Assembly: GCA_022822065.1 (NCBI GenBank)
Contig: JAJECI010000007.1
Location: 1 to 64,000 of the forward strand
Length of the DNA stretch: 64,000 bases
Direction: 5' to 3'
Origin: Candidatus Dadabacteria bacterium
GTDB lineage: Bacteria; Desulfobacterota_D; UBA1144; Nemesobacterales; Nemesobacteraceae
Shown: one piece after another, positions 26,309 through 39,927 of the stretch
How positions within the stretch are numbered: the first letter of the stretch is position 1
Layout: every line of letters starts with the position of its first letter
Made by a program: the position numbers and the translations under genes
The notes under the pieces: model-generated
What the model saw: only the letters and a program-made list of their open reading frames with translations
Told to the model about the DNA's origin: nothing
Databases searched by the model: none

Positions 26309-27400
26309 TTATCTTTCTCTCCAGGACGCCACGGTCGGATACGAATTTTTCTTTTTCAGGTTTTTACGGATAACGGCCTGAATCTGTCTTGTAACGGGAA
26401 TTTGCTCTCCCACTATGCCTGTGGAAACAGCGGTGTAGACATCGCTTTTTCCGCTCTTAAGAACCACTCCCGAAATGCCGGAGCTTATCTTAAGACTGGA
26501 ATCCACTCCCTTCAAGATTTTATTGGTCTCGCTGGCAGATATGACTCTCTTGGTACTCCTGCGAATGATTATCTCGTCGGCCATTCTCCCGACTAAGCTG
26601 TCTTTCATCTCCCGGGGATCGTTCTGCCTCTCGTTGACCGAGACCCCCGCGGCCTTAATGGTAGCCATTATCACCGGTTTTGAAGCGGTGCTGAAATTCA
26701 CCTTCTTGTCTTTGGGATACACGGTCAGATAGTCTTTGACCTTGAAAAAGAAATCCTTGTCCATCCCCTCAATCATCCTAATTTCCTCAACGCTGTCAAG
26801 CGGTCCGTCCTTAATATAATAAGGGTTCTCAAGTTTGGTGTAATAGCTCCCACCGGCTCCATCGGGGTCCTGATCGTTTCCGCTACCCCGCGCCGCCCCG
26901 TCAAGCCAGTTCACCAGACTTGCCACGAAGAGATCGGCCTTCTCCGTCTCCACCTCGAGAAAGCGGAAAAGTTCATTTAGCTGCGTTCGGACCTGAAAAT
27001 CCACTCGGCCCGATTTCTGGCCCACAAGAGCGTTGAGATTGACTTTCGATCTCTCGTCTACAACTTGAAGAGATATGTTTCCTTCTCCGATGGGAAAAGA
27101 GGTGATGGAAAGCTTCCAGCCGTCGGAACCGTTTTCCGAGCTTATTGCCTGCGCAAGGATTCCCTGCAGTAAGGGTAGGTCCTCTGGTGTTTTTTTTCTC
27201 AGAACCCCCCGCACAACTCTCACCCCTGATTTCGCAATATGTCTTGCCTGGACATCGCTTGAGCTGTTCGCGGAAATTTCGTAACTCACGCGGGTCGAGT
27301 ATATGAAATCAATCACGATCGTGGAAAGTATCGCAATCGTAATGACAACGATAACAAGTACTATTCCCCTCTGCGTTGTTTTCGGATCTGCTCTGCGCAT
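26309..27400 (-). CDS. gspK: Type II secretion minor pseudopilin GspK
   Basis: GspK caps the pseudopilus with GspI and GspJ. The prepilin leader is cut after Gly12 (TTQRG). The following segment IVLVIVVITIAILS lacks the usual Glu at +5, a known trait of GspK. The 363-residue length and the segments ERSKVNLNALVG and SLVNWLDG match the family. It is the last gene of the leftward gsp operon, starting one base after the gspJ stop. Confidence 0.92.
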   Translation of the reverse strand: MRRADPKTTQRGIVLVIVVITIAILSTIVIDFIYSTRVSYEISANSSSDVQARHIAKSGVRVVRGVLRKKTPEDLPLLQGILAQAISSENGSDGWKLSITSFPIGEGNISLQVVDERSKVNLNALVGQKSGRVDFQVRTQLNELFRFLEVETEKADLFVASLVNWLDGAARGSGNDQDPDGAGGSYYTKLENPYYIKDGPLDSVEEIRMIEGMDKDFFFKVKDYLTVYPKDKKVNFSTASKPVIMATIKAAGVSVNERQNDPREMKDSLVGRMADEIIIRRSTKRVISASETNKILKGVDSSLKISSGISGVVLKSGKSDVYTAVSTGIVGEQIPVTRQIQAVIRKNLKKKNSYPTVASWRER

Positions 27401-28075
27401 TCAGTCAGCCACCGGTATAGCAACAATCATGGAATGGGCCTCCTCCTGACCCCCGTTCCCCAAAAGAATGATCTGGACCTGAACCGCTTTGGGGAATCCC
27501 CGCATTACTGACGAATTCCACTCCCACACCTCTTGCTCGTCAGCCGAGCCCGGAAGTCGTTCGGGAAGGAAACTCACCCTGAAACTCAGCACCCTTTCCG
27601 AAATCGGATACGCGGCTCCGGCCTCATCGTTTCCGATCCAGTAATTATCCTTCCTCATAAGGGCAAACATATCTTCGCGCTCGTCGCGGAGCGGAACCAG
27701 ATAGTAGGAGATCTCGCTCTGGCCGGATTGGGTGGAATAATGCGTGGGATCCTTCGCAAAAGAGGTGAATGCTATTCTGCTGTTATCCTCTTCGAGTCTC
27801 CCGGTAAAGTAACTATATGCGGAGGGAGAAGAGACCTCGGAATTGATATTCCCCCTGGGAAAAGCATTCACCAGGTCGTGGCGCATCTTAAGCAGAATCG
27901 TGTTCGCCTCCTGGATCAATTCATTTTCCGTCTCCACCCTGCGTTTGGCTGTTATAAGCTGGGAAAAGGAGCTATAGAGCATCGTGAGCACGATGACCGT
28001 TATGGCAACGGCGATAAGAACCTCTATAAGGGTGAAGCCGCTTTTATCATCCCGAATCGACGAAGCTGATTTCAT
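27401..28075 (-). CDS. gspJ: Type II secretion minor pseudopilin GspJ
   Basis: A 224-residue minor pseudopilin. The leader is cut after Gly13, leaving FTLIEVLIAVAITVIV with Glu at +5. The rest is the globular domain that packs with GspI and GspK at the pseudopilus tip. It overlaps gspI by 29 bases, so the two are translated together. Identity rests on length, position in the operon and the pattern TRRVETENE-like helix followed by the LRHD region. Confidence 0.85.
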   Translation of the reverse strand: MKSASSIRDDKSGFTLIEVLIAVAITVIVLTMLYSSFSQLITAKRRVETENELIQEANTILLKMRHDLVNAFPRGNINSEVSSPSAYSYFTGRLEEDNSRIAFTSFAKDPTHYSTQSGQSEISYYLVPLRDEREDMFALMRKDNYWIGNDEAGAAYPISERVLSFRVSFLPERLPGSADEQEVWEWNSSVMRGFPKAVQVQIILLGNGGQEEAHSMIVAIPVAD

Positions 28076-28421
28076 AGCTCTCCTCCCCGTCGTTCCAGAT
28101 TATAAGAACACTGACGATGGTCATTTTCGCTTCGAATTGGGGTAAGTTGTAAGGGGAAATTGTGATATGCCACTCAAAACCGGGATGATTTTCAAATTCC
28201 CCGCTTCTCTCCGACTCCGACGGGAACCCTTCAGCGTCGATTCTTGAAGCCATGTCGTCGGCCAGACTCGTGGCTATCAGGTAGTTGGTGGACCTTGTGG
28301 CAAGATTTATATTGTGACCTACAATGCTGAGGATTGACACCATCGCAAAGGCGAGCAACCCAACGGCAACCATAACTTCAAGCAACGTGAACCCGCAGAC
28401 GCTGTTTTTCGAGGCCCTCAT
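28047..28421 (-). CDS. gspI: Type II secretion minor pseudopilin GspI
   Basis: A 124-residue minor pseudopilin with the leader cut after Gly10 and FTLLEVMVAVGLLAFAM following. The helix continues to NLATRSTNYLIATSLADD, close to the family pattern (A-x-N-L in the first helix). Small size and position between gspH and gspJ support the call. It starts 12 bases after the gspH stop. Confidence 0.87.
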   Translation of the reverse strand: MRASKNSVCGFTLLEVMVAVGLLAFAMVSILSIVGHNINLATRSTNYLIATSLADDMASRIDAEGFPSESERSGEFENHPGFEWHITISPYNLPQFEAKMTIVSVLIIWNDGEESYEISFVDSG

Positions 28422-28433
28422 ACAGTTTTCTCC

Positions 28434-28967
28434 CTACCGTTCGGCAAGGTTCCGAAACCGGCTGTTAAATTCGACGTACTCGTCAAAAACTTTAGTGGCC
28501 CCGGTGTAGGGGTTTGTGGAAAGCGTGAAGAAATTGTCCTCATCAGTTCCCAGGTGAATAACCGCCGAGTCAACAATCCCCGTCGGCAGAAAAAGTATAA
28601 ACGCGTCTCTTCCGGAAGCGATCTTTCCTTGGGTTCTCTCCGTCTGTATATCGCTGAAAAAGACCCCTCCGGGGAGTTTTCTTAGTCCGGATGCGGAACC
28701 CTCCTCCGAGCGGAACTGGTTTCCCTCAAGAAATTCTGCCCAGTATTCCCCGGTATCGATATCGAAAGAAAGCTTGTATATCCGTTTTTCAAAAATGGCT
28801 TTGCTGTAAACGTGCCTTATCGTAGTGACAAGCCCTCTTGAAGCGCTGCGAAGGTTCATGTCACCCGTTTTGAGGACTCTGGGCATGGCCACGGAGAAAA
28901 AAGCTCCGAGCAAAAAAACAACCACAATGAGTTCAATTAAGGTGAAACCAGCGGATTTTCTTCTCAT
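28434..28967 (-). CDS. gspH: Type II secretion minor pseudopilin GspH
   Basis: A 177-residue minor pseudopilin. The leader is cut after Gly7 and FTLIELIVVVFLLG follows, with Glu at +5. The C-terminal domain is beta-rich, as in GspH/FimT proteins. Its ATG overlaps the gspG stop by four bases. Confidence 0.85.
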   Translation of the reverse strand: MRRKSAGFTLIELIVVVFLLGAFFSVAMPRVLKTGDMNLRSASRGLVTTIRHVYSKAIFEKRIYKLSFDIDTGEYWAEFLEGNQFRSEEGSASGLRKLPGGVFFSDIQTERTQGKIASGRDAFILFLPTGIVDSAVIHLGTDEDNFFTLSTNPYTGATKVFDEYVEFNSRFRNLAER

Positions 28968-29383
28968 CTGTCTCTGCTGGACAGATCATCATCTGAGTTC
29001 CCTATCCCATCCGAACCGTTAGATCTTATATAGTACAATCCGTCCTCGGTCTGGTCGACCCCGAGATACACAAACTCGTTCCCCCAAGGATCAAGCGGCA
29101 CGCTCGCGGATTCAAGATAACGTCTCCACCTCTTGGCCTCTCTGCCCACCGTTACCGGTTCGACCAGAGCGCGCAGCCCTTGCTGGGTTTCAGGATAAAA
29201 ACCGTTATCAAACTTAAACAGCTGGAGCGCCTGCTCAAACTGTTTGATCTGAATCACGGCCTGTTTTTCCTTTGCCCTCTCCCCCTGACCTATCACGTTC
29301 GTTCCCACTATGTAGGCAAGTCCCGCTATGATAAGCACGACCACCATAATTTCAATCAGAGTAAATCCCATCTGGGATCTCAT
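28964..29383 (-). CDS. gspG: Type II secretion major pseudopilin GspG
   Basis: GspG builds the pseudopilus shaft that pushes substrates through the secretin. The leader is cut after Gly6, leaving FTLIEIMVVVLIIAGLA. The signatures YPETQQGLRALVEP and PLDPWGNEFVYLG are diagnostic. The C-terminal SDGIGNSDDDLSS is the usual calcium-binding end. The length of 139 residues is normal. Confidence 0.96.
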   Translation of the reverse strand: MRSQMGFTLIEIMVVVLIIAGLAYIVGTNVIGQGERAKEKQAVIQIKQFEQALQLFKFDNGFYPETQQGLRALVEPVTVGREAKRWRRYLESASVPLDPWGNEFVYLGVDQTEDGLYYIRSNGSDGIGNSDDDLSSRDR

Positions 29384-29401
29384 TTTTTTCTACCTCCCTA
29401 T

Positions 29402-30610
29402 TCAGCTTATTACAGAAGTTAGATTCAACACGGGTAAGAGTATAGCAAAAACTATAAAACCCATCACGACGCCCATAATCAGTATCATTACCGGTTCAAG
29501 AAGGGAAGTCAGCGTGGCAAGCATGCCGTCGACCTCGGTATCATACATGTCGGCCACTTTCGACAGCATGACTTCCATTTTGCCTGCCTCCTCGCCCACA
29601 GACACCATTCTCACCATTAGGGGAGGAAAAATCCCGGTCTGTCCAAGACAGCCTCCAAACGCCGCCCCCTCTGCAACCTTGACCCGCACATCCCTTATAT
29701 TGTCAATATAAAGACTGTTTCCCATAACCGATTCGCTCACCCTGATGGATTCAAGAAGAGGAATGCCGCTTGAAAGCAGCGTGGAAAGCGTTCTTGTGAA
29801 GCGGGAAATCATCACTTTTGAAGACATCTTCCCGAATACCGGAACCCTCAGGGAAAACCTGTCGTAGACCTTCTTTCCTGAAGGAGTTTTTACGTACCTG
29901 TGTCCAAAAAATAATACGACGGCAAAGAAAACCAGCAGAAGGACAAAATTCTCCCTGAGAAAATCACTTGCACCTATAAGCACTACGGTAACAAACGGCA
30001 AAGCCTTGTTGCTGGCCTCGAATATATCGGCGACCTTGGGAATTACGAAAGTCATCATGAAAACCAGCACCCCGAGCCCGACGACAAACATTATCGCCGG
30101 ATATACCATGGCACCCCTGATCTTCGAAGTCAGCTCAAGCTGCTTTTCAAGGAAATCCGCAAGACGGTCGAGCACGACATCAAGGGTGCCGCTAGCCTCG
30201 CCGGCACGAACCATGCTCACGTAAAGATCAGAAAAAGCTCCTTCGTGCTCCTCAAGCGCGGCGTGAAGAGAACTGCCTTCACTCACTCGGCTTCGCACCT
30301 GAGAGAGAATCCCCTTGAGCTTCTGGTCATCGGTCTGCTCGTAGAGGGCCACAAGCGACGTCTCAAGAGGAAGACCCGATGAAATCAGGGTTGAGAACTG
30401 CCTTGTCATAACGGCAAGTTCCGAGACGCTCACCCTGTTCCACGGAAGGCTTACCGACGAGCGGCGAGACCCGCTCGCCTCCTTTATGGAGGAAAGATAG
30501 ATGCCGCCTTTTCTTAGCCTGTCGCCTGCGATCTTGACCGATTCTGCGCTGATAACCCCCTTTATCGATTCGCCCTTGTCGTTAATGGCTTTATAGTTAT
30601 AAACAGGCAT
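29402..30610 (-). CDS. gspF: Type II secretion inner-membrane platform protein GspF
   Basis: GspF is the polytopic platform protein that couples the GspE ATPase to the pseudopilus. Two T2SSF domains (about residues 70-190 and 270-395) alternate with three membrane segments. I chose ATG 30610 (402 residues, starting MPVYNYKAINDKG), as in relatives, instead of the longer frame from 30688 that would run into gspE. No strong ribosome site is seen; coupling to gspE is likely. Confidence 0.93.
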   Translation of the reverse strand: MPVYNYKAINDKGESIKGVISAESVKIAGDRLRKGGIYLSSIKEASGSRRSSVSLPWNRVSVSELAVMTRQFSTLISSGLPLETSLVALYEQTDDQKLKGILSQVRSRVSEGSSLHAALEEHEGAFSDLYVSMVRAGEASGTLDVVLDRLADFLEKQLELTSKIRGAMVYPAIMFVVGLGVLVFMMTFVIPKVADIFEASNKALPFVTVVLIGASDFLRENFVLLLVFFAVVLFFGHRYVKTPSGKKVYDRFSLRVPVFGKMSSKVMISRFTRTLSTLLSSGIPLLESIRVSESVMGNSLYIDNIRDVRVKVAEGAAFGGCLGQTGIFPPLMVRMVSVGEEAGKMEVMLSKVADMYDTEVDGMLATLTSLLEPVMILIMGVVMGFIVFAILLPVLNLTSVIS

Positions 30611-30641
30611 TTGAAATATCGATGTTAAAGATGACTGCGGT

Positions 30642-32324
30642 CTAGCTCTCCGCCGGTTCCTCTTCCGTAACCCTGAGCACTTCGTCAATTGACGTTATGC
30701 CTTTTGCGACTTTGTCGGCACCATCCATCCTAAGGGTAATGAGTCCATTTCTCAGGGCCCTTTCCTTAAGCGTTGCAGAATCCGGGTGTGTGAGAATAGT
30801 GTTTTTAAGTTCATCATCGATAATCAGTATCTCAAAAATCGCTATTCTTCCCGAAAACCCCGTCTCCATGCACTCCTGGCATCCCTTGGCTCTGTATATC
30901 TTTCCCTCCGGACAGGCCTCGCGAGCAAGTCCGATACGGCTGAGCTCCTCATCAATCGGCACGTACTGTTCTCTGCACCGCATGCAAAGAACCCTGACAA
31001 GTCTCTGAGCTATAACCGCCGAGAGGGTAGAAGCTATAAGAAAGGACTCCACCCCCATATCGGCAAGCCTGGTAACGGCACTTACCGAATCATTGGTATG
31101 CAGCGTGGAAAATACGAGATGCCCCGTGAGTGAAGCGTTCATGGAAATATCGGCGGTTTCCCTGTCCCTTATCTCCCCGACCAGTATGACGTCGGGGTCC
31201 TGCCTGAGTATTGAGCGAAGTCCGTTTGCGAACGTAAGATCGACCTTTGTGTTGACTTGAATCTGGTTAATTCCCTGTATCTGGTATTCAACCGGGTCTT
31301 CTATGGTGATTATCTTCTTGTCGGGAAGATTGATTCTCTGCAGGGAGGCATAGAGACTCGTTGTCTTTCCGCTTCCCGTGGGTCCCGTAACCAGAATGAT
31401 CCCGTGAGGACGTTTGATAAGGGATTCCACCGTTTCGAGTTTTTTCCCTTCAAGTCCCAGCTGTTCGAAGTTCATCAGCACCGAAGACCTGTAAAGCAAC
31501 CTCATTACCACACTCTCTCCCCATGAAGTGGGCACCGTCGAAACCCTTACGTCGATATCCCTTCCCCCGATCTTAAGCCTTATGCTCCCGTCCTGAGGCT
31601 TTCTTCTCTCGGCTATATCAAGTTCAGACATGATCTTCACTCGCGAGATCACCGAAGACTGCACCGTCTTCGGAACTTTCGTCACGTCGTGCAGAATGCC
31701 GTCCTTTCTGAACCGTACCAGCACTTCTTTTTCGAAACACTCTATGTGAATATCGCTCGCGTGCTCCCTTACCGCCTGAAAAAGAAGCGTGTTTATGAAT
31801 TTTATGATCGGGGCTTCATCTTCGGCCTCAATCAGATCCTGGGGCTCTGTAAACTCCATGTCGGAGAGTCCCGAACCTTCGTTTATATCCTCTGATACAA
31901 CATCTTTGCCCTGCTCGTAAACCCTGTTAATGCTGTCGGTCAGCACGCGCTCAAGAGTAATGTAAGTTTCAAGCGAGCAGTTAAAGCGGGAGCGGACCTC
32001 GTCAAGGGCGTAGAGTTCCTGAGGCGGGGCGAATACGACTTTGAGCGTTCCGTTGTCCTTGTTTATGGGGAGTATTCTGAATCTTTTCGCGAAGCTGATC
32101 GGAAACTGTTTTATCAGTTCATAATCTATATCGCTTTCGGGAATCGATTCGATTTTCTCGACTCCGTAAAACTCGGAAAGAACATCAAGAGCAGGGGAAT
32201 CTTTGAGTACGTCGGTTTTGAGCAGTATGTCCTCTGTGTTCCGGCCGTTCTTCCCTTTAAGCTCTTCAATCCTCCCCATAACCTCGGGGTAACGCCTGCC
32301 TATTATCTCGTCAAGAGCCTTCAT
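30642..32324 (-). CDS. gspE: Type II secretion ATPase GspE
   Basis: GspE powers pseudopilus assembly. The 560-residue protein has an N-terminal GspE domain, then Walker [14 protein letters not shown], the Asp box IITIEDPVEYQI, Walker B VILVGEIRDRETA and the His box LVFSTLHTNDS. The four-cysteine zinc motif CMRC...CQEC separates GspE from PilB/PilT types lacking it. It starts 14 bases after the gspD stop. Confidence 0.96.
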   Translation of the reverse strand: MKALDEIIGRRYPEVMGRIEELKGKNGRNTEDILLKTDVLKDSPALDVLSEFYGVEKIESIPESDIDYELIKQFPISFAKRFRILPINKDNGTLKVVFAPPQELYALDEVRSRFNCSLETYITLERVLTDSINRVYEQGKDVVSEDINEGSGLSDMEFTEPQDLIEAEDEAPIIKFINTLLFQAVREHASDIHIECFEKEVLVRFRKDGILHDVTKVPKTVQSSVISRVKIMSELDIAERRKPQDGSIRLKIGGRDIDVRVSTVPTSWGESVVMRLLYRSSVLMNFEQLGLEGKKLETVESLIKRPHGIILVTGPTGSGKTTSLYASLQRINLPDKKIITIEDPVEYQIQGINQIQVNTKVDLTFANGLRSILRQDPDVILVGEIRDRETADISMNASLTGHLVFSTLHTNDSVSAVTRLADMGVESFLIASTLSAVIAQRLVRVLCMRCREQYVPIDEELSRIGLAREACPEGKIYRAKGCQECMETGFSGRIAIFEILIIDDELKNTILTHPDSATLKERALRNGLITLRMDGADKVAKGITSIDEVLRVTEEEPAES

Positions 32325-32338
32325 TTTCCAAAAATTCC

Positions 32339-34819
32339 CTACTCAAGCGTATTAAGGTCCCTTCTATGAAGCAAGGTCTTTCTTTTCTGGTAATCCATAA
32401 GCAACTGCTTCATATCGCTTTCCGTCTCAACTATCCGCGGCGTAAGAAGTATCATCAGGTTAAGCTTCCTGCTCTGATTGCGCTTGAACCTGAACAGGTT
32501 TCCAATCAGCGGAATATCTCCGAGCAGAGGTGTTTTGTTGTGAAGCACCTCTTCCCTGTCCTGAACCAGCCCGCCTATAACTAGGGTCTGCCCGTTTTTG
32601 ACTATAACAGACGAATCGGCGCTTCTCGTTGTAGTCGCAATGCCGAACTGGGCGGTGTTAAGCCCCGCGGGCGCCTCCCGGGTAGAGGAAACCTCGGTCA
32701 CTATGTCAAGGTTAAGGTATTCTCCTTCGCTTATCTGAGGGGTGATGCTGAGTCTTATTCCTACCGGAAGTCTCTCGATCGTCTGAACCGTCACGCCGCT
32801 TGTTCCCACGGTGCTGCCCATCGGAAACGGTATTATGTCAGCTACCACTATCTCGGCCGGCTCGTTGTCGGTTGTAATAATGCTCGGGGTTGAGAGAACG
32901 TTGACGTCGGTCACGGAACTCAGCGCCTGAAACACAGCGGAGAAAGAGGGAAGAGACGGAAGCGGACCCGAACCGTCGGGGTCAACCTCCTCTCCCACTA
33001 CTCCGAGAAAGAGTCCCGAGAGACTACCTATGGAAGTCGCTGCAATTGCGGGGTCGGCCGCGACTCCGAGAAGGCTCGGAATGCCCGGCAGCTGCTGTCC
33101 GAGGAAACCGAGGTTGTCGCCCTCTATTGTGACACCGAGACCGAAATTGGTTCCCAGCGCGTTAAGGTCGTCAAGCCCCACCTCGAGTATGGCGGCTTCC
33201 ACGAACACCTGCCTTCTCCTTACGTCAAGCTTGTCCACTATCTGCTTGACCATTCTGTACTGCGTGAGAGAACCGACCACTATGATGGAGTTCGTCGCCG
33301 GGTCCGAAGTTATCTTAAGTCCATCGTCCGAAGACACTATGACGGAAGCGCCGGTCTGCCCGCTCCCTCCCCTCTTGATGTTCCCGCCTTGGGAACCTAG
33401 GCCACCGACATCTCCGCCACCGCCTACTTTCCCCTCTCCGAGACGGCTTGAAGGCTGGCCGGTTCTGCCGGATTGCCGCGTCCGGTCATTGTAGGAAACT
33501 GAAGACACTGCGCCCCCTTTCCCCTCCGTGAACAGGTTCCCCAGGACTTCGATTATCTGCTCGGCGTCGGCGTTTTTAACTGGTATAACGTAAACGTCCT
33601 GTTCCGCGTGCTCGCTCTCGATGTCCAAAATGGCAATTGTCTCCTTTATCAGGGAAAGATCCCTCGGATCGGCAATCACTATTATGGAATTCGTCCTCTC
33701 GTCGTTTATCACTTTAAACCCTAGGAGCTCAGAACTTCCGGACATGAGACCGTCACTCTTACCCTTTGATGGCTTGGCCTTGGCGCTCTTAGGGTTGAAA
33801 ATCTCAAGCAGCTTAGAAATGACGTTGGCCGAGTTTGTGTTATGCACTCTGACGAACTCTATCTTCTTTTCGTAATCAAGATTTGCAATCACTTCGGCTA
33901 TCTTGTTCACGTTCTGTTCACTATCGACCACAACCAAGGTATTCGACGGTTCGTGAGCCTTCATAAACCCATCCCTGCTAATGAGAGCTCGAAGGACGTT
34001 GGAGACTCCTTTGGCTTTTACGCTCTTAAGCTTTATCAGCTTCATCACGTATTTCTGGGAAGACTCCGCAGCGTCGAAATCCAGTCTTAGGGGTATACTC
34101 TCCGACTTTATCCCCTTTTTGGGGACGATCTTGTTGACTCCCTCCGCACTTATGACCGAATAGCCGTTCATATCAAGAAGTATTTCAAAAATCCTAAACG
34201 CATTCTCCCTCTCGAAACCGCCCTCGGGAGTTATGATCGTCACGTTCTTGTCCCTGATCTTGTCACTCAGGAGATAAACCTCGGAGGTGATCTCGCTTAT
34301 GGTCTTTACCATCTCATTAAGCGTCATGTTGGCGCGAAGGTTGACCATTCCCTCGTCCTCGGGAATTTGCTGACCCTCTTCTTCACCCAGAGTTTCACCG
34401 CCCGGATCCCCGGCGACCACGGGCGACGTTTTCCCAGGCTCCGGCTCAGGGGCTCCCTCAACTCCGGCTACAGTTTCTTCCTCCGCTAAATCAAGCGGAA
34501 GGCCGGGGTCTTCGACCGAACCTTCCAGAATCTCGTTGCCAGAAACTTTCACCGCATCTTTCCCGAGAGGCCTTAAGTCTTGCTTGCCCGGATCTTTTGC
34601 GGCCTCCTCGGCCAGCAACTCCGCAGCTCTCTCAGGCGAATCCTCCCCGCTCGCTTTTTTAAGCCTCGTGCCCGGGGCGACGACAACCTTAGCCCTCGTA
34701 AGATCGGGAAGCGGCTCGGACTTCTGTGCAGGAGCCAACTGGGGATAGAGAACAGAAACGGAAAAAATGAGAACCGCAGACAGAACCGGGAAAAGATTTT
34801 TATTCAGAAAGTATCTCAT
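32339..34819 (-). CDS. gspD: Type II secretion secretin GspD
   Basis: GspD forms the outer-membrane gate. In this 826-residue protein a signal peptide (about 1-32) is followed by an acidic, proline-rich linker to about 155. Then come the N0 domain, three N1-N3 repeats and the secretin barrel (about 560-805, with VLSTPSIITTDNEPAEI and VIGGLVQDREE). N3 carries a Gly/Ser-rich insertion (about 450-480). The long linker before N0 is unusual. It starts 42 bases after gspC. Confidence 0.94.
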   Translation of the reverse strand: MRYFLNKNLFPVLSAVLIFSVSVLYPQLAPAQKSEPLPDLTRAKVVVAPGTRLKKASGEDSPERAAELLAEEAAKDPGKQDLRPLGKDAVKVSGNEILEGSVEDPGLPLDLAEEETVAGVEGAPEPEPGKTSPVVAGDPGGETLGEEEGQQIPEDEGMVNLRANMTLNEMVKTISEITSEVYLLSDKIRDKNVTIITPEGGFERENAFRIFEILLDMNGYSVISAEGVNKIVPKKGIKSESIPLRLDFDAAESSQKYVMKLIKLKSVKAKGVSNVLRALISRDGFMKAHEPSNTLVVVDSEQNVNKIAEVIANLDYEKKIEFVRVHNTNSANVISKLLEIFNPKSAKAKPSKGKSDGLMSGSSELLGFKVINDERTNSIIVIADPRDLSLIKETIAILDIESEHAEQDVYVIPVKNADAEQIIEVLGNLFTEGKGGAVSSVSYNDRTRQSGRTGQPSSRLGEGKVGGGGDVGGLGSQGGNIKRGGSGQTGASVIVSSDDGLKITSDPATNSIIVVGSLTQYRMVKQIVDKLDVRRRQVFVEAAILEVGLDDLNALGTNFGLGVTIEGDNLGFLGQQLPGIPSLLGVAADPAIAATSIGSLSGLFLGVVGEEVDPDGSGPLPSLPSFSAVFQALSSVTDVNVLSTPSIITTDNEPAEIVVADIIPFPMGSTVGTSGVTVQTIERLPVGIRLSITPQISEGEYLNLDIVTEVSSTREAPAGLNTAQFGIATTTRSADSSVIVKNGQTLVIGGLVQDREEVLHNKTPLLGDIPLIGNLFRFKRNQSRKLNLMILLTPRIVETESDMKQLLMDYQKRKTLLHRRDLNTLE

Positions 34820-34861
34820 AAACTGTTTTAACCTTAAGAAACTGAATTCTTCGTATTAGGC

Positions 34862-35809
34862 CTAGTAAACCGTGTACCGGTTACTCTTTCTTTTACCCTG
34901 TCTCGTGAAATCAACGGTAAACTCACTCTGGCCCTTCAAGTCGGTAAAAAGCGAAAGAGCGCTCTGCACGTCGTTTAAAGCAACTTCATTTATCTGGTGA
35001 ACTATATCACCGTTCCTAAGACCCATCTTATAAAACACGCTCCGGCTTTTCACTCCGAAGATCTTGATACCGTCATCGCGCGGCACGATCTTAGCCTCGG
35101 TTATTAAACTGCTGGGTTCAGCGAGCAGCTCTTCAAACATCCTTCTCTCTACCGAGTACAAGCCCTCGCTGACTTTGCTGACCCCTAAAGCCGACGACTT
35201 TTTTGACTTAACAAGCGGTTTGTTCCCTCCTGAAGAACTCGGGAAGTTTCTTGCAAAAACGGATTGAATCTCGTTTCCGCAGGTAATCAATTCGGGACCT
35301 TCCGCTCTTCGTATAGTTACTTCGCAGTCGTCTATTTTCACTACCTCCACTTTTTCGGACGCTACAAGATCAACCAACTGCCCTTCAGAATAACCCTTTA
35401 TTCTGCTATTTTCCATATTCTTTATCACGGCGATGCTCTTGTTGGCTGCAGAATTAGTACGGCTTTTGAGTATGAAAGTTCCAAGAAGTTCAAGTTTGAG
35501 GGATGTCTTCGGGGTAATTCCCCCCTCGAAAACTTCTGGGAAATCATCCGTCTCTATCTGTCCGGCATAACCGCCCGTTCCAAACAGGTTCGTTTTCAGT
35601 ATAGAGTTGTAGTACGCCCTTGAACGATAGGGAATCTTAACCCGCCCGTATTTCTCCTCGTAGACGTGTTCGCCTGTCAGGCCAACCTTGTCGGACTCTA
35701 TCTTGTCGCGCAGGCCGTTGTTGATCATGGCCGAAACCGAGTACGCGATGGCGACTATCAGCAAGACGTTTACGACCCAGACATATTTTCTTAAAACAAA
35801 CAAAACCAT
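34862..35809 (-). CDS. gspC: Type II secretion protein GspC with PDZ domain
   Basis: GspC links the inner-membrane platform to the secretin and helps choose substrates. The 315 residues show one membrane anchor (about 9-28), a homology region around 90-180 and a C-terminal PDZ domain (about 225-310: GIKIFGVKSRSVFYKMGL, then GDIVHQINEVAL). AAGGAA provides the ribosome site. It is the first gene of the gsp operon. Confidence 0.87.
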   Translation of the reverse strand: MVLFVLRKYVWVVNVLLIVAIAYSVSAMINNGLRDKIESDKVGLTGEHVYEEKYGRVKIPYRSRAYYNSILKTNLFGTGGYAGQIETDDFPEVFEGGITPKTSLKLELLGTFILKSRTNSAANKSIAVIKNMENSRIKGYSEGQLVDLVASEKVEVVKIDDCEVTIRRAEGPELITCGNEIQSVFARNFPSSSGGNKPLVKSKKSSALGVSKVSEGLYSVERRMFEELLAEPSSLITEAKIVPRDDGIKIFGVKSRSVFYKMGLRNGDIVHQINEVALNDVQSALSLFTDLKGQSEFTVDFTRQGKRKSNRYTVY

Positions 35810-35836
35810 AGTCAGTTCCTTAAATTAAGACTATAT

Positions 35837-35865
35837 AATTTAATAGAATACCTTATTTTTTTCAA
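35837..35865 (-). promoter_or_regulatory. Promoter of the gsp operon
   Basis: On the minus strand, TTGAAA (35860-35865), a 17-base spacer and TAAATT (35837-35842), in an AT-rich gap 28 bases before gspC. Confidence 0.5.
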
Positions 35866-35955
35866 TACCCCCATCACCCAGGAACGTGCGCTCAAGAAAA
35901 GCTCGCAATTCTGAAGCGATACCCCGCAGCGATTTTTTAGATATCCGCGCAATGT

Positions 35956-36999
35956 TCACTCACTCCGTTTTGTTTCCCCGGCCAGGGCGACGACAGGGAA
36001 GTTTTCAAGTACGGAGGAAAAATACCGCTTTTCAAGACCATATATATCAAAAGCAAGTTCCGAGGCCCGCTCGAATCCCTCTCCGCATGAAGCGCTCTCG
36101 CTTATCTCCTTGAAAAGCATTCCCATGTCGTACCACTTCTGACCGATACTGTCCATCTCATTGGGAAGGCCCGCCCCGTAAAAAGGGGAAAGCACCGGGG
36201 AGACCTCCTCGAGGAAATCCCTGTAAAACCACCTGAAAGCAGCGCCGCAGACCCCTCTTCTGCATATGACCTGATAAGTGAATCTCGAGGTCCACTTCCA
36301 GTCGGCAAGATTCTTCCAGCCAGGAATGTCCTCGGCCCATTTCCTTATAACCTCAACGCTCGAAGTTCCCCTTAGAGTGGTCCTGCCTTCAAGCATCATC
36401 TCGGCGTTTTTCCTCACGGCACCGAGAATCATCTCTTCGGCACTGAAGCCGTCTTCAAGAGACCTCACTTCAACACGATTGTTGGAAAGAGGGTACGGCC
36501 TTGCTTTTGAGCTTCTCGCTTTGGTCATGTTCTCAAAAGAGACAGTCTGGAGATCTTCAAACGAATTGTCCGCCACGTAAAAAACGGATTCGGAGTCGTC
36601 GTATCCGCATACCGCTATTATGTGTCCGGGGAAATGGGTCTTAGAGTCAAAGTACTCAAGGTAGCGGATATCAGCCTGTATCAACACTGGAATGTTCCTG
36701 TCAACAAACTCCCTGAGGTCAGCCGAGGCCCGCTCGTTGTCGTCCTCGTACTTCCAATCGGTGACATCAACACCGAAACTTCTCAGGAAATTAATTTCCA
36801 TCAGGGGACCGCGGGGCTGTATAATCCTGCTCGGGTTCATTCCCTCCTCACGGGAGTAATAAAAACCGAGCCCGGCTCCCAGCCCGAAACACATCTGCTC
36901 TGAGAGATCGTGTCCGTAATAGAGGCATATATCTCTCAGCGCTGCGGAACCGCAGTGCACCCCTTTTAAGTGTTTCCAGTCATTTATTATTTTCTTCAT
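35956..36999 (-). CDS. BtrH-like cysteine acyltransferase/peptidase with DUF4872-like C-terminus
   Basis: A protein of about 347 residues. BtrH of butirosin synthesis moves an acyl group from a carrier protein to an amine. Residues 13-20 (GVHCGSAA) give a candidate nucleophile Cys16; His126 (GHIIAVCGYDD) and Asp144 (YVADNS) complete a plausible triad. The C-terminal half resembles DUF4872. No peptide, polyketide or carrier-protein genes are nearby, so the substrate is unknown. I prefer ATG 36999; longer in-frame starts reach 37128. It is divergent from the DUF1152 gene. Confidence 0.75.
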   Translation of the reverse strand: MKKIINDWKHLKGVHCGSAALRDICLYYGHDLSEQMCFGLGAGLGFYYSREEGMNPSRIIQPRGPLMEINFLRSFGVDVTDWKYEDDNERASADLREFVDRNIPVLIQADIRYLEYFDSKTHFPGHIIAVCGYDDSESVFYVADNSFEDLQTVSFENMTKARSSKARPYPLSNNRVEVRSLEDGFSAEEMILGAVRKNAEMMLEGRTTLRGTSSVEVIRKWAEDIPGWKNLADWKWTSRFTYQVICRRGVCGAAFRWFYRDFLEEVSPVLSPFYGAGLPNEMDSIGQKWYDMGMLFKEISESASCGEGFERASELAFDIYGLEKRYFSSVLENFPVVALAGETKRSE

Positions 37000-37140
37000 A
37001 AGAAGCCGCAGGGTTGAGAGAACTAATATAGCCGGAAATCGATATTCCATAAAGACCCCGGCACGCTCATCACTCGGGGGAACCACCTTGATCATTGCGC
37101 CAAAACGGATATTAGTAATCACCACCACGGATAAATCAGC

Positions 37141-38082
37141 ATGCTTGAGAAAATCCTTAGAAATTCGAAAAAGGCTATTTTGCTCGGAATAGGAGGAGGA
37201 GGCGATGTAGTCGGAACCCTTCCGACGGCAAACCTGCTCGAGATAAACGGAACGGAATGCGTTTTGGGAGGACTTAGCTGGGAGCGTTTCACAATAGATC
37301 CCGACCCCGGACCCAGAAGACTTGAAGAATCACGCAACGTCCGCGAGATAAACGACGTGGTCTGGAGATGCAATAAAGATTCCATCACCCGAGGCGGAGC
37401 GAGATTCGCCGAAGCAGGGATGGCCGAAGTTCTGGGGAAGGAAACCCTTCTTGTCGATATCAGTTACGGTCCGAAGAAGGTTTTTGAGGGAATAACGGAC
37501 GCTGCCGAAAAACTCGGCGCAGATCTGGTGGTGGGAATAGACGTCGGGGGAGACGTGCTTGGATTCGGAGACGAAAAGGGACTCATGAGTCCACTTGCCG
37601 ACGCCATAATGACCGCGGCGCTTTACAGACAGAGTTTCCGGATGCCTACCGTAATGGGAGTATTCGGTTTCGGAAGCGACGGAGAGCTCTCCAAGGAAGA
37701 ACTTGAGAGGTCATTCGGCATCATAGCACGGAACAACGGAATTTTCGGGAGCTGGGGCATATCCGCAACCACTCTGGAATTAATGGAAAAGGCGATAAGC
37801 GTAATACCCACCGAGGCGAGCAGAGGACCCGTTGAATACGCAAAAGGAGTTTTCAGCGCCACTTCAATAAGAGACGGCAGAAGAAAAGTCGAACTCGATA
37901 TAAGTTCCACAGTAACCTTCTATGTAGATCCCCGGGTGGTTTACGAAAAGGTGTCAAGGCCCGCGCAAGCGGTCTACGAATGCAGAACGATAGGGGAAGC
38001 AAACGCAAAGCTTAACGAGGCGGGTATCAGGACGGAACTTGATATTGAAATGGAACTTTACGAAAACCTCAAGTCAAACTAA
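37141..38082 (+). CDS. DUF1152 family protein
   Basis: A 313-residue protein with a glycine-rich start (LLGIGGGGDVVGTLPTANLL) and GGLSWERFTIDPDPGPR, close to DUF1152 proteins known mainly from archaea and some bacteria. The GIGGGGD loop and GIDVGGDVLGFGDE suggest nucleotide or metal binding, but no activity is established. There is no signal peptide, so it should be cytoplasmic. It is divergent from the BtrH-like gene across a very short gap, implying shared control. Confidence 0.8.
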   Translation: MLEKILRNSKKAILLGIGGGGDVVGTLPTANLLEINGTECVLGGLSWERFTIDPDPGPRRLEESRNVREINDVVWRCNKDSITRGGARFAEAGMAEVLGKETLLVDISYGPKKVFEGITDAAEKLGADLVVGIDVGGDVLGFGDEKGLMSPLADAIMTAALYRQSFRMPTVMGVFGFGSDGELSKEELERSFGIIARNNGIFGSWGISATTLELMEKAISVIPTEASRGPVEYAKGVFSATSIRDGRRKVELDISSTVTFYVDPRVVYEKVSRPAQAVYECRTIGEANAKLNEAGIRTELDIEMELYENLKSN

Positions 38083-38477
38083 TAGAGCTTTTCGTGAATA
38101 AGCTTGAGTATACGTCTTGATTCTTCCTCATCTCCCCAGATGCCAACGCGGATACTCAGATCGGTTACCTCGGGCTTGTCGTACTTGACAATTAGATAGA
38201 CGAGTTTGTCCTGATCGCGAAGCTTGGCTTCGATAAGCGCCCTGCCCTCATTGCTCTCTTTTCTTATTATCTCAAGATCCTGCTGCTCCACGACCTCTAC
38301 AACCGCGAACCAGACCTTGTCAAACGAGGCGGATTCCTTGGTGTTTAGAACTCCCTTGAGATAAGCCGCGGTACTACCGCCGATCAAGCCGCCCGCCACG
38401 AGTGCGCAGCCCGAAGAAAAAAGAAGCACGAATAACGACAAAAGCACGGTACGATATTCTTTTGGAAGGAATTTCAT
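38079..38477 (-). CDS. Small DUF3568-like lipoprotein
   Basis: A lipoprotein of about 132 residues. The signal peptide ends in the lipobox FSSGC, followed by ALVAGGLIGG. The small C-terminal domain (FDKVWFAVVEVVEQQDLEI, then ALIEAKLRDQDKLVYLIVKY) matches the DUF3568 pattern of alpha/beta periplasmic lipoproteins. ATG 38477 is chosen because GGGAG lies just upstream. Its stop overlaps the end of the DUF1152 gene by four bases on the other strand. Function is unknown. Confidence 0.75.
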   Translation of the reverse strand: MKFLPKEYRTVLLSLFVLLFSSGCALVAGGLIGGSTAAYLKGVLNTKESASFDKVWFAVVEVVEQQDLEIIRKESNEGRALIEAKLRDQDKLVYLIVKYDKPEVTDLSIRVGIWGDEEESRRILKLIHEKLY

Positions 38478-38580
38478 TTTCGCTCCCGGCAAGCTTTAGG
38501 AAAAAAACCTATATGTTCAGTTAACCTAACCTAGCAAGAAAAAGAGTCAACATTCATGGAATCCTTCATATCAAAAAATA

Positions 38581-38682
38581 GACTGCTTCTTGGAAAGGTT
38601 CCGCACCACCGTAAACGTATGGGGAGACAGTATAGGGGCGGCAGTCATAAAGAAACTGGAGCCCGATGAAAACACCGGCTGA
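38581..38682 (+). pseudogene. C-terminal stump of a dicarboxylate/amino-acid:cation symporter
   Basis: Thirty-three codons in one frame end at TGA 38680-38682. They contain ERFRTTVNVWGDSIGAAVI, the conserved C-terminal end of the GltP/DctA symporter family. The open frame extends only to a stop near 38522, without homology or a start signal. The last codons overlap the ruvX ATG at 38666, as in a former operon. The body of the gene has been deleted. Confidence 0.7.
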
Positions 38683-39112
38683 AAAGCAAGACAGGACTTC
38701 GGGGAGAACAATCTCGCTTGACATAGGAACCAAGACGATAGGGGTTGCCGTAAGCGACGAGCTGGGGATCACGGCAAACGGCGTCTGTACCATAAGTCGG
38801 GAAAACGAGAAAAAAGACCTCGCGCAGCTTCGCGACATAATAGAGCGATATTCTCCTTGCGAAATCCTCGTCGGGCTACCCTACAACCAGGACGGTTCTC
38901 TCGGAAACAGGGCAAAAGGCATAAGGAAATTTTCTGAACGCATTCGAGATTTCCTGGGCCTTCCGGTTGTATACTGGGACGAGAGCTTTTCCACCAAGAC
39001 CGCGGAGCAGACGCTTATAGAAGCCGGTATGGGAAGAAAAAAGCGAAAAACGGTAATAGACAAGATGGCCGCTACGGTAATACTGGAAGAGTACCTTCTG
39101 AGCAGAAGCTAG
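38666..39112 (+). CDS. ruvX: Putative pre-16S rRNA nuclease YqgF/RuvX
   Basis: YqgF trims the 5' end of 16S rRNA and has an RNase H-like fold also proposed for Holliday junctions. The 148 residues show SLDIGTKTIGVAVSDELG (first acidic site), EILVGLPYNQDGS, DESFSTKTAEQ and the final DKMAATVILEEYL. All core acidic residues are present. It overlaps the symporter stump at its start. Confidence 0.93.
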   Translation: MKTPAEKQDRTSGRTISLDIGTKTIGVAVSDELGITANGVCTISRENEKKDLAQLRDIIERYSPCEILVGLPYNQDGSLGNRAKGIRKFSERIRDFLGLPVVYWDESFSTKTAEQTLIEAGMGRKKRKTVIDKMAATVILEEYLLSRS

Positions 39113-39135
39113 ATAAAGCTCGGGACAGACCTGAT

Positions 39136-39927
39136 ATGCCACACGCAGAGACAAACGGAATAAATCTTTATTACGAAGAGTACGGAGAGGGGGATCCGCT
39201 CGTGCTCATCCACGGCCTTGGAAGCAGTCTTGAGAGCTGGGCGACACAGGTTCCCATCTACTCGGAACACTTCCGCGTGATAGTGCTTGACAACAGGGGC
39301 TCTGGCCACTCCGAGAAACCCGATTACCCGTACACGATGGAGCAGATGGCGGATGACGCCGCGGGGCTCTTGGACTTTCTCGGGATCGAAAAAGCCCACT
39401 TCGTCGGAAAATCAATGGGCGGAATGATATGCCAGTGGCTGGGTATAAAATACCCCAACAGGGTAAACAAGCTCGTCATGGGATGCTCCTCCGCACACAG
39501 GGACGAGGTCGGAAACCTGCTTATCAAAACCGCGAGGGACATAGTGGATAAGGCGGGACCCGGGGCGGGATGGGTTTTTGCGCTGTTTCTCGGATACCGA
39601 AGGAAATACATTGAAGAGAATTACGACTCCTTAATAAACAGAATCCAGGAAGTTCCCGTTGACCTCGATGCGGCCGCCGGATACAGAAACCAAAGCTACG
39701 CGTGCGAGAACCACGACGTGTTAGCCCAACTCGGTAAGATCTCCGCGAAAACCCTGGTCATGTACGGAGAGCGGGACATCGTCACGCCTCCCGAGAGATC
39801 AAAAAAGCTCGTGGAATTCATACCGAACGCGGTTGAAAAGGCCTTTGCGGACGTAGGCCACGGATTCTGGAGAGAGTGCCAGGCCGAGGTGGATAAAGCC
39901 GTGCTTGATTTTCTCGCAAAAAACTAG
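39136..39927 (+). CDS. Alpha/beta-fold hydrolase
   Basis: A 263-residue hydrolase. The oxyanion segment LIHGLGSSLESW is followed by the nucleophile elbow GKSMGG (Ser), acid Asp in YGERDIVTP and His in VGHGFW, so the triad is complete. It looks like esterases or lactonases of the 3-oxoadipate enol-lactonase/haloperoxidase group. The substrate is unknown. It lies 23 bases after ruvX. Confidence 0.9.
   Translation: MPHAETNGINLYYEEYGEGDPLVLIHGLGSSLESWATQVPIYSEHFRVIVLDNRGSGHSEKPDYPYTMEQMADDAAGLLDFLGIEKAHFVGKSMGGMICQWLGIKYPNRVNKLVMGCSSAHRDEVGNLLIKTARDIVDKAGPGAGWVFALFLGYRRKYIEENYDSLINRIQEVPVDLDAAAGYRNQSYACENHDVLAQLGKISAKTLVMYGERDIVTPPERSKKLVEFIPNAVEKAFADVGHGFWRECQAEVDKAVLDFLAKN

Follow-up and report, generated by a model that had tools for sequence, protein, structure and literature searches.

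A BtrH-like gene and its divergent DUF1152 neighbor in a Dadabacteria genome: a conserved Cys-His-Asp triad, a local gene adjacency, and a possible N-acyltransferase in a non-antibiotic setting

The window analyzed here, a 64,000-nt stretch from a Dadabacteria genome of 1.63 Mb, carries a gene for a BtrH-like protein and, transcribed away from it, a gene for a DUF1152 protein (Table 1). Both open reading frames are real and lie at the coordinates given in the initial annotation. That annotation also described the control region between them as very short, assuming a GTG start at 37128 and hence a 12-bp gap, and this start is not conserved. The BtrH-like protein instead begins at the ATG at 36999, which provides M1 in 20 of 20 aligned sequences of the class and is an ATG in all eight loci of the genus that were compared. 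With this start, the ATG-to-ATG gap is 141 bp here and 141 to 150 bp across the 8 genus loci, so the control region is of ordinary length. Consensus scans of positions 36900-37250 found neither a sigma-70-like promoter nor a terminator, an Rfam search of 35000-39500 gave no match to a riboswitch or other RNA, and a PADLOC search with three proteins gave no match to a defense gene. Directly downstream of the BtrH-like gene lies a type II secretion set on the minus strand (26309-35809: GspC, GspD, GspE, GspF, a pseudopilin-like and a GspK-like protein); GspC and GspD homologs are likewise found close to BtrH in one other genome (G027, locus L068). On the far side, a DUF3568 lipoprotein-like gene (38079-38492, minus strand) adjoins DUF1152, and it stays near DUF1152 in three relatives (G012, G013, and G019) despite BtrH being further off there.

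Table 1. Features of the BtrH-DUF1152 locus, numbered from the first letter of the window
Feature	Position	Strand	Remark
BtrH_N + DUF4872 protein, 347 aa	35956..36999	-	starts at the conserved ATG at 36999
Predicted nucleophile Cys16, codon	36952..36954	-	invariant in 20/20 and 9/9 aligned sequences
Predicted catalytic His126, codon	36622..36624	-	invariant in 20/20 and 9/9 aligned sequences
Predicted catalytic Asp144, codon	36568..36570	-	invariant in 20/20 and 9/9 aligned sequences
Divergent intergenic region, 141 bp	37000..37140	no strand	without consensus promoter or terminator
DUF1152 protein, 313 aa	37141..38082	+	probably a separate gene, outside any BtrH system
DUF1152 loop GIGGGGD, residues 16-22	37186..37206	+	from alignment
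DUF1152 conserved DVGGD...E.G..SPLAD segment, residues 134-154	37540..37602	+	from alignment

The BtrH-like protein matches the Pfam families BtrH_N (PF14399; 119.5 bits against a cut-off of 29.7) and, at its C terminus, DUF4872 (PF16169; 95.6 bits against 28), as well as Peptidase_C39_2 (26.2 bits against 24). The Cys-His-Asp triad that had been read from it is borne out by the alignments, with C16, H126, and D144 invariant in 20/20 sequences of the class. The same three residues are invariant in a second alignment (9/9), which includes five haloarchaeal homologs and one from an Acinetobacter plasmid at 31 to 36% identity. An unconserved triad residue had been named in the initial annotation as grounds for refutation, and none was encountered. 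The NCBIfam equivalog model DarH_acyl (NF053550) aligns over nearly the whole length of the protein yet scores 102.3 bits, far under its cut-off of 300, and identity with DarH was rejected on this ground. Searches of the PDB by sequence returned no match, or merely weak unrelated ones, for the BtrH-like and DUF1152 proteins, and a profile search against the PDB did not reach any BtrH-family chain by sequence.

Structural comparison was more informative. With an AlphaFold2 model of the BtrH-like protein built from 10 sequences, the mean pLDDT of which is only 62.5, Foldseek ranked CtaG first (9qvs, E 1.2e-5), followed by CcbD (7yn1, E 2.8e-5; another CcbD entry, 8.6e-5) and AziU2-U3 (8gs1, E 1.2e-3); the next entries were unrelated helical proteins at E 0.27 and worse. 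VIA-align superimposed the model on CtaG over 232 residues with a Z score of 12.1 and a high rmsd of 5.7 Å. Since rows for helical bundles reach Z 11.8 in the same comparison, the Foldseek E-values carry more weight for the fold. The matches to CtaG and CcbD cover most of the length of these proteins, their C-terminal helical domain included.

These likenesses relate the protein to three enzymes of antibiotic pathways, from each of which it also differs. CtaG, the closthioamide peptidyl transferase, is the best structural match, and the titles of its PDB entries (9qvs and variants) list C11A, H128A, and D144N, pointing to a triad C11/H128/D144 that is apparently equivalent to the one described here. 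CtaG, however, acts in an NRPS-like pathway that uses the carrier proteins CtaE and CtaH, according to PMC6772006. CcbD and LmbD (7yn1, 9dkr), which catalyze lincosamide condensation, resemble the predicted fold, again including the C-terminal helical domain. As reported in PMC12945683, CcbD loads carrier-bound proline on a cysteine and transfers it onto the thiooctose amino group, and CcbD/LmbD form the amide on an amino sugar through a cysteine acyl-enzyme. CcbD thus relies on Cys-His-Glu and a carrier-bound proline, whereas the protein studied here has Cys-His-Asp and no partner carrier was found for it. BtrH of butirosin biosynthesis has PF14399, PF16169, and the Cys-His-Asp triad in common with our protein; PMC10318531 describes it as an ACP:aminoglycoside acyltransferase and puts BtrH_N in the vicinity of the peptidase families C39 and C70. 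In contrast to butirosin BtrH, the gene described here lies in no antibiotic cluster, has no dedicated carrier or ligase alongside, and is present in most genomes of one bacterial class.

The initial annotation took the divergent arrangement as a sign of a joint pathway, in which the BtrH-like and DUF1152 proteins would form one amide-making or -breaking system. Among 60 related genomes (G000-G059, the genome under study, G000, included), 45 contain BtrH_N and 51 contain DUF1152. Both genes occur in 44 of the 60, which speaks for a connection, although DUF1152 in one of these (G036) is a fragment at a contig edge; 7 of the 51 DUF1152 genomes lack BtrH, 1 of the 45 BtrH genomes lacks DUF1152, and 8 genomes have neither. 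Direct adjacency, the other point in favor, is seen in 11 of the 44 genomes with both genes, all from the genus of G000 (g1; G000-G007 and G009-G011), where 11/13 genomes show it with the similar spacing noted above. Even within this genus, a 330-aa open reading frame sits between the two genes in G012, and in G008 they are on separate contigs, with a different, 924-aa open reading frame facing DUF1152. In a genome of the same family (G013) and one of another family (G019), the two genes still diverge, but 1.4 and 4.2 kb of other genes intervene, among them a gene for a Lit-like membrane protein. In the other 29 of the 44, BtrH and DUF1152 are at least 16 kb apart or on separate contigs. Around 80 DUF1152 loci of named genomes, viewed with flanks of up to 9 kb per side that were cut by contig ends, nine had BtrH nearby, each of them belonging to this class; among 15 DUF1152-bearing genomes from outside it, a single one contains BtrH at all. 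The adjacency is therefore not repeated outside one genus, the co-occurrence fails across phyla, and synteny is common to species of one genus anyway. We consider a joint system very improbable, and the pair in itself is of little import given that the adjacency is local. As other genes separate the two in related families, the data suggest that loss of intervening genes brought them together in this genus.

The partners of BtrH elsewhere in the class are more telling, and our best reading is that in most relatives BtrH is coupled to sugar-phosphate-type enzymes, either a HAD-type phosphatase or a phosphohexomutase. The phosphatase encoded next to BtrH matches HAD_2 (76.3 bits); its closest NCBIfam model, phosphoglycolate phosphatase, scores 60.3 bits, far under the cut-off of 225. 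Orthologs occur in 19/60 genomes, at 45 to 60% identity to the query copy, which is itself counted among the 19; this set coincides with that of the BtrH-bearing genomes lying outside both genus g1 and a further family, f8. The phosphatase gene directly follows BtrH on the same strand in 19/19 of these, at a distance of -13 to +279 bp (-13 to +7 in 14 of them). As the outer neighbors, tabulated for 12 of the 19, vary between families, the link goes beyond plain synteny. Genus g1 and family f8 have no orthologous phosphatase, only paralogs of 23 to 35% identity (23 to 29% in g1) elsewhere in the genome, and the enzyme is thus dispensable. In f8, a marine family with genomes of ~1 Mb, the phosphohexomutase gene lies upstream of BtrH, and in 13/13 BtrH-bearing genomes the two share exactly 13 bp; the wider gene order is common within the family, and these overlaps are hence not independent events. 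In the g1 genomes, neither the HAD nor the phosphohexomutase gene stands beside BtrH. Some f8 contigs bear the names UBA1144 and TMED58, and streamlined pelagic Dadabacteria have been described (PMC8115339).

Relatives of BtrH are also carried by plasmids, where tblastn retrieved 98 records, mostly from Acinetobacter and Rhodococcus. Seven plasmid neighborhoods were viewed, six of them haloarchaeal, one from Acinetobacter, and none from Rhodococcus. Acyl-CoA enzyme genes are located near BtrH in five of the six haloarchaeal neighborhoods, and the sixth has phenylacetyl-CoA epoxidase genes together with an enoyl-CoA hydratase-related gene. On the Acinetobacter plasmid, BtrH follows a TetR gene and precedes two PaaI thioesterase genes. 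Archaea are not known to have the carrier proteins of fatty acid synthase, which makes a CoA thioester plausible as the donor for BtrH. In three Haladaptatus plasmids (L207, L208, and L209), kynU (kynureninase) lies directly upstream of the BtrH-like gene, and an indoleamine dioxygenase gene is found close to this pair in two of the three, an arrangement that possibly reflects a tryptophan-to-anthraniloyl route.

The origin of the acyl group and the direction of the reaction leave room for readings other than the one we favor. It had been noted that no carrier protein or synthetase is encoded nearby, and indeed none was present among the 20 window proteins scanned with Pfam, nor did searches of the genome for PP-binding and AMP-binding domains give a match inside the window. 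The genome as a whole contains four PP-binding and eight AMP-binding matches, and a 502-aa AMP-binding ligase gene is paired with an 86-aa carrier gene at G000:C1:75835-77597, ~39 kb from BtrH, so that a dedicated acyl-ligase and carrier pair encoded elsewhere might serve BtrH as in the butirosin and lincosamide pathways. The ligase is, however, missing (E<=1e-40) from 13/13 BtrH-bearing f8 genomes and also from G003, G009, and G013, which likewise carry BtrH. The pair is therefore not required by BtrH, and its use as a dedicated donor system seems unlikely. The setting of a carrier-dependent antibiotic amide synthase was rejected as well, with no carrier or ligase in the window and the nearest pair not co-distributed with BtrH. 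A hydrolase, be it a thioesterase or an amidase/peptidase, deserves more credit, and we regard it as a possible though distinctly less favored identity for the BtrH-like protein. It would fit the placement of BtrH_N beside the C39 and C70 peptidases (PMC10318531), the Peptidase_C39_2 match, and the two PaaI thioesterase genes adjoining BtrH on the Acinetobacter plasmid. The presence of the DUF4872 domain argues for an amide synthase instead, as do the best structural matches, which include the transferases CtaG and CcbD with their C-terminal helical domain.

Elsewhere in Dadabacteria, the ligase-carrier two-gene unit (L227:5833-7598, contig C1) is kept in most genomes outside f8 and absent from f8. 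The 1.6-Mb genome studied here also encodes, on contig C10 (L228:5070-15563), a type I polyketide synthase of 3497 aa that contains a methyltransferase domain, followed by genes for a phosphopantetheinyl transferase and an alpha/beta hydrolase.

Taken together, these results lead us to class the gene with BtrH, CcbD, and CtaG, as an orphan of that type found in an unusual setting outside antibiotic synthesis. The explanation that we prefer, to which we give about an even chance, is that the two genes are independent: the BtrH-like protein would be an orphan papain-fold thioester:amine N-acyltransferase and the DUF1152 protein a separate, LmbE/PIG-L-like Rossmann-fold enzyme in which acidic loops, but no histidines, are conserved. 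The amide-forming part of the function first suggested for this locus may thus stand for BtrH, on the strength of its triad, domains, and predicted fold, while the joint system with DUF1152 does not. From these features and the gene neighborhoods, we infer a ping-pong chemistry in which Cys16 would take an acyl or aryl group from CoA or from the thioester of a generic carrier protein, and His126 and Asp144 would activate an amine for attack on the acyl-enzyme, giving the amide. Presumably, this would form part of a small pathway along with a phosphohexomutase or HAD-type phosphatase, and given these enzymes, a sugar-phosphate-derived amine is our best guess for the acceptor. Two acceptors known for enzymes of this type are amino sugars, which by analogy would fit a sugar-phosphate context. 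The acyltransferase assignment is limited by the low confidence of the model and by a phosphohexomutase link that lies within one family only.

More tentatively, and at well below even chances, a BtrH/CcbD-type amide synthase may belong to core metabolism across the whole class. Coupled to a HAD phosphatase or a phosphohexomutase and drawing on CoA or general ACP, it would make an unrecognized N-acylated sugar or amine metabolite, retained even by genomes of ~1 Mb, and the haloarchaeal relatives might act alike with aryl- or acyl-CoA. If our reading of BtrH is right, an enzyme type known from antibiotic pathways would perform housekeeping in a marine and sponge-associated lineage that is still uncultured, and the acceptor could be sought among sugar-phosphate-derived amines. 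A bacillithiol-like scheme, with PIG-L present and BtrH replacing BshC, was considered and discarded: PIG-L is missing from the BtrH-bearing genomes G014, G019, G027, and G029. BshC is absent from 60/60 genomes, and PIG-L is present in 20/30.

The DUF1152 protein matches PF06626 over positions 2-294 of the 295-position profile (301.5 bits against a Pfam cut-off of 27). The glycine-rich loops pointed out in the initial annotation are strongly conserved motifs in the alignments; among 62 members of the family, D134, D138, E145, D154, D180, and E182 are conserved, and no invariant or nearly invariant histidine is found. Its structural model, based on 62 sequences, has a pLDDT of 94.4. In VIA-align, the 16 top rows are all LmbE/PIG-L-like (Z 8.5 to 10.6, 182 to 199 residues), the next row has Z 6.6, and no fold of another kind stands clear of the rest, an absence that carries no weight against other folds. 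LmbE/PIG-L enzymes bind zinc through motifs named HPDD and HxxH. The apparent resemblance in overall fold to members such as MshB, the teicoplanin deacetylase Orf2, and chitobiose deacetylase, together with the high pLDDT, might suggest that DUF1152 is a metal-dependent N-deacetylase of this kind. The histidines that mark these deacetylases are nevertheless absent from the 62 DUF1152 proteins, whereas our PIG-L set keeps H12, D14, D15, H119, and H122. Nor was a relation detected by sequence: hhalign against a 9-sequence PIG-L profile gave a probability of 0.1, compared with 0.4 for an unrelated BtrH profile used as a control, and PF02585 is missing from the families that the 62 members hit at E<=1. 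Foldseek returned no match to the model at E<=1e-3 (best E, 4.1e-3). Membership of the PIG-L family is rejected at the sequence level, and an LmbE/PIG-L-type deacetylase activity is quite unlikely. We conclude that the modeled DUF1152 protein would have a shared or convergent fold with LmbE/PIG-L and a different chemistry. None of the papers searched uses the names DUF1152, PF06626, or COG4034, and the model may provide a first fold hypothesis for the family.

DUF1152 is found in many archaea, and outside the class its gene neighbors vary by lineage such that no single pathway emerges. Our guess would be that it catalyzes a step of small-molecule catabolism, as a hydrolase or an isomerase. In deltaproteobacterial bins (L126, L136, L139, L140, L141, and L146), DUF1152 occurs in a repeated set with glyoxalase-like and MFS genes, to which some add isochorismatase-like and alpha/beta hydrolase genes, and these neighbors look catabolic. 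In haloarchaea, an aminotransferase gene partners DUF1152, and NAD-related genes lie near it on one haloarchaeal plasmid. In two Archaeoglobi loci (L152 and L164), an aroA-like gene comes immediately after DUF1152, in clusters that also hold a chorismate-synthase-like gene, and in marine Dadabacteria aroA is divergent from DUF1152, the gene names at these loci having been read from sequence.
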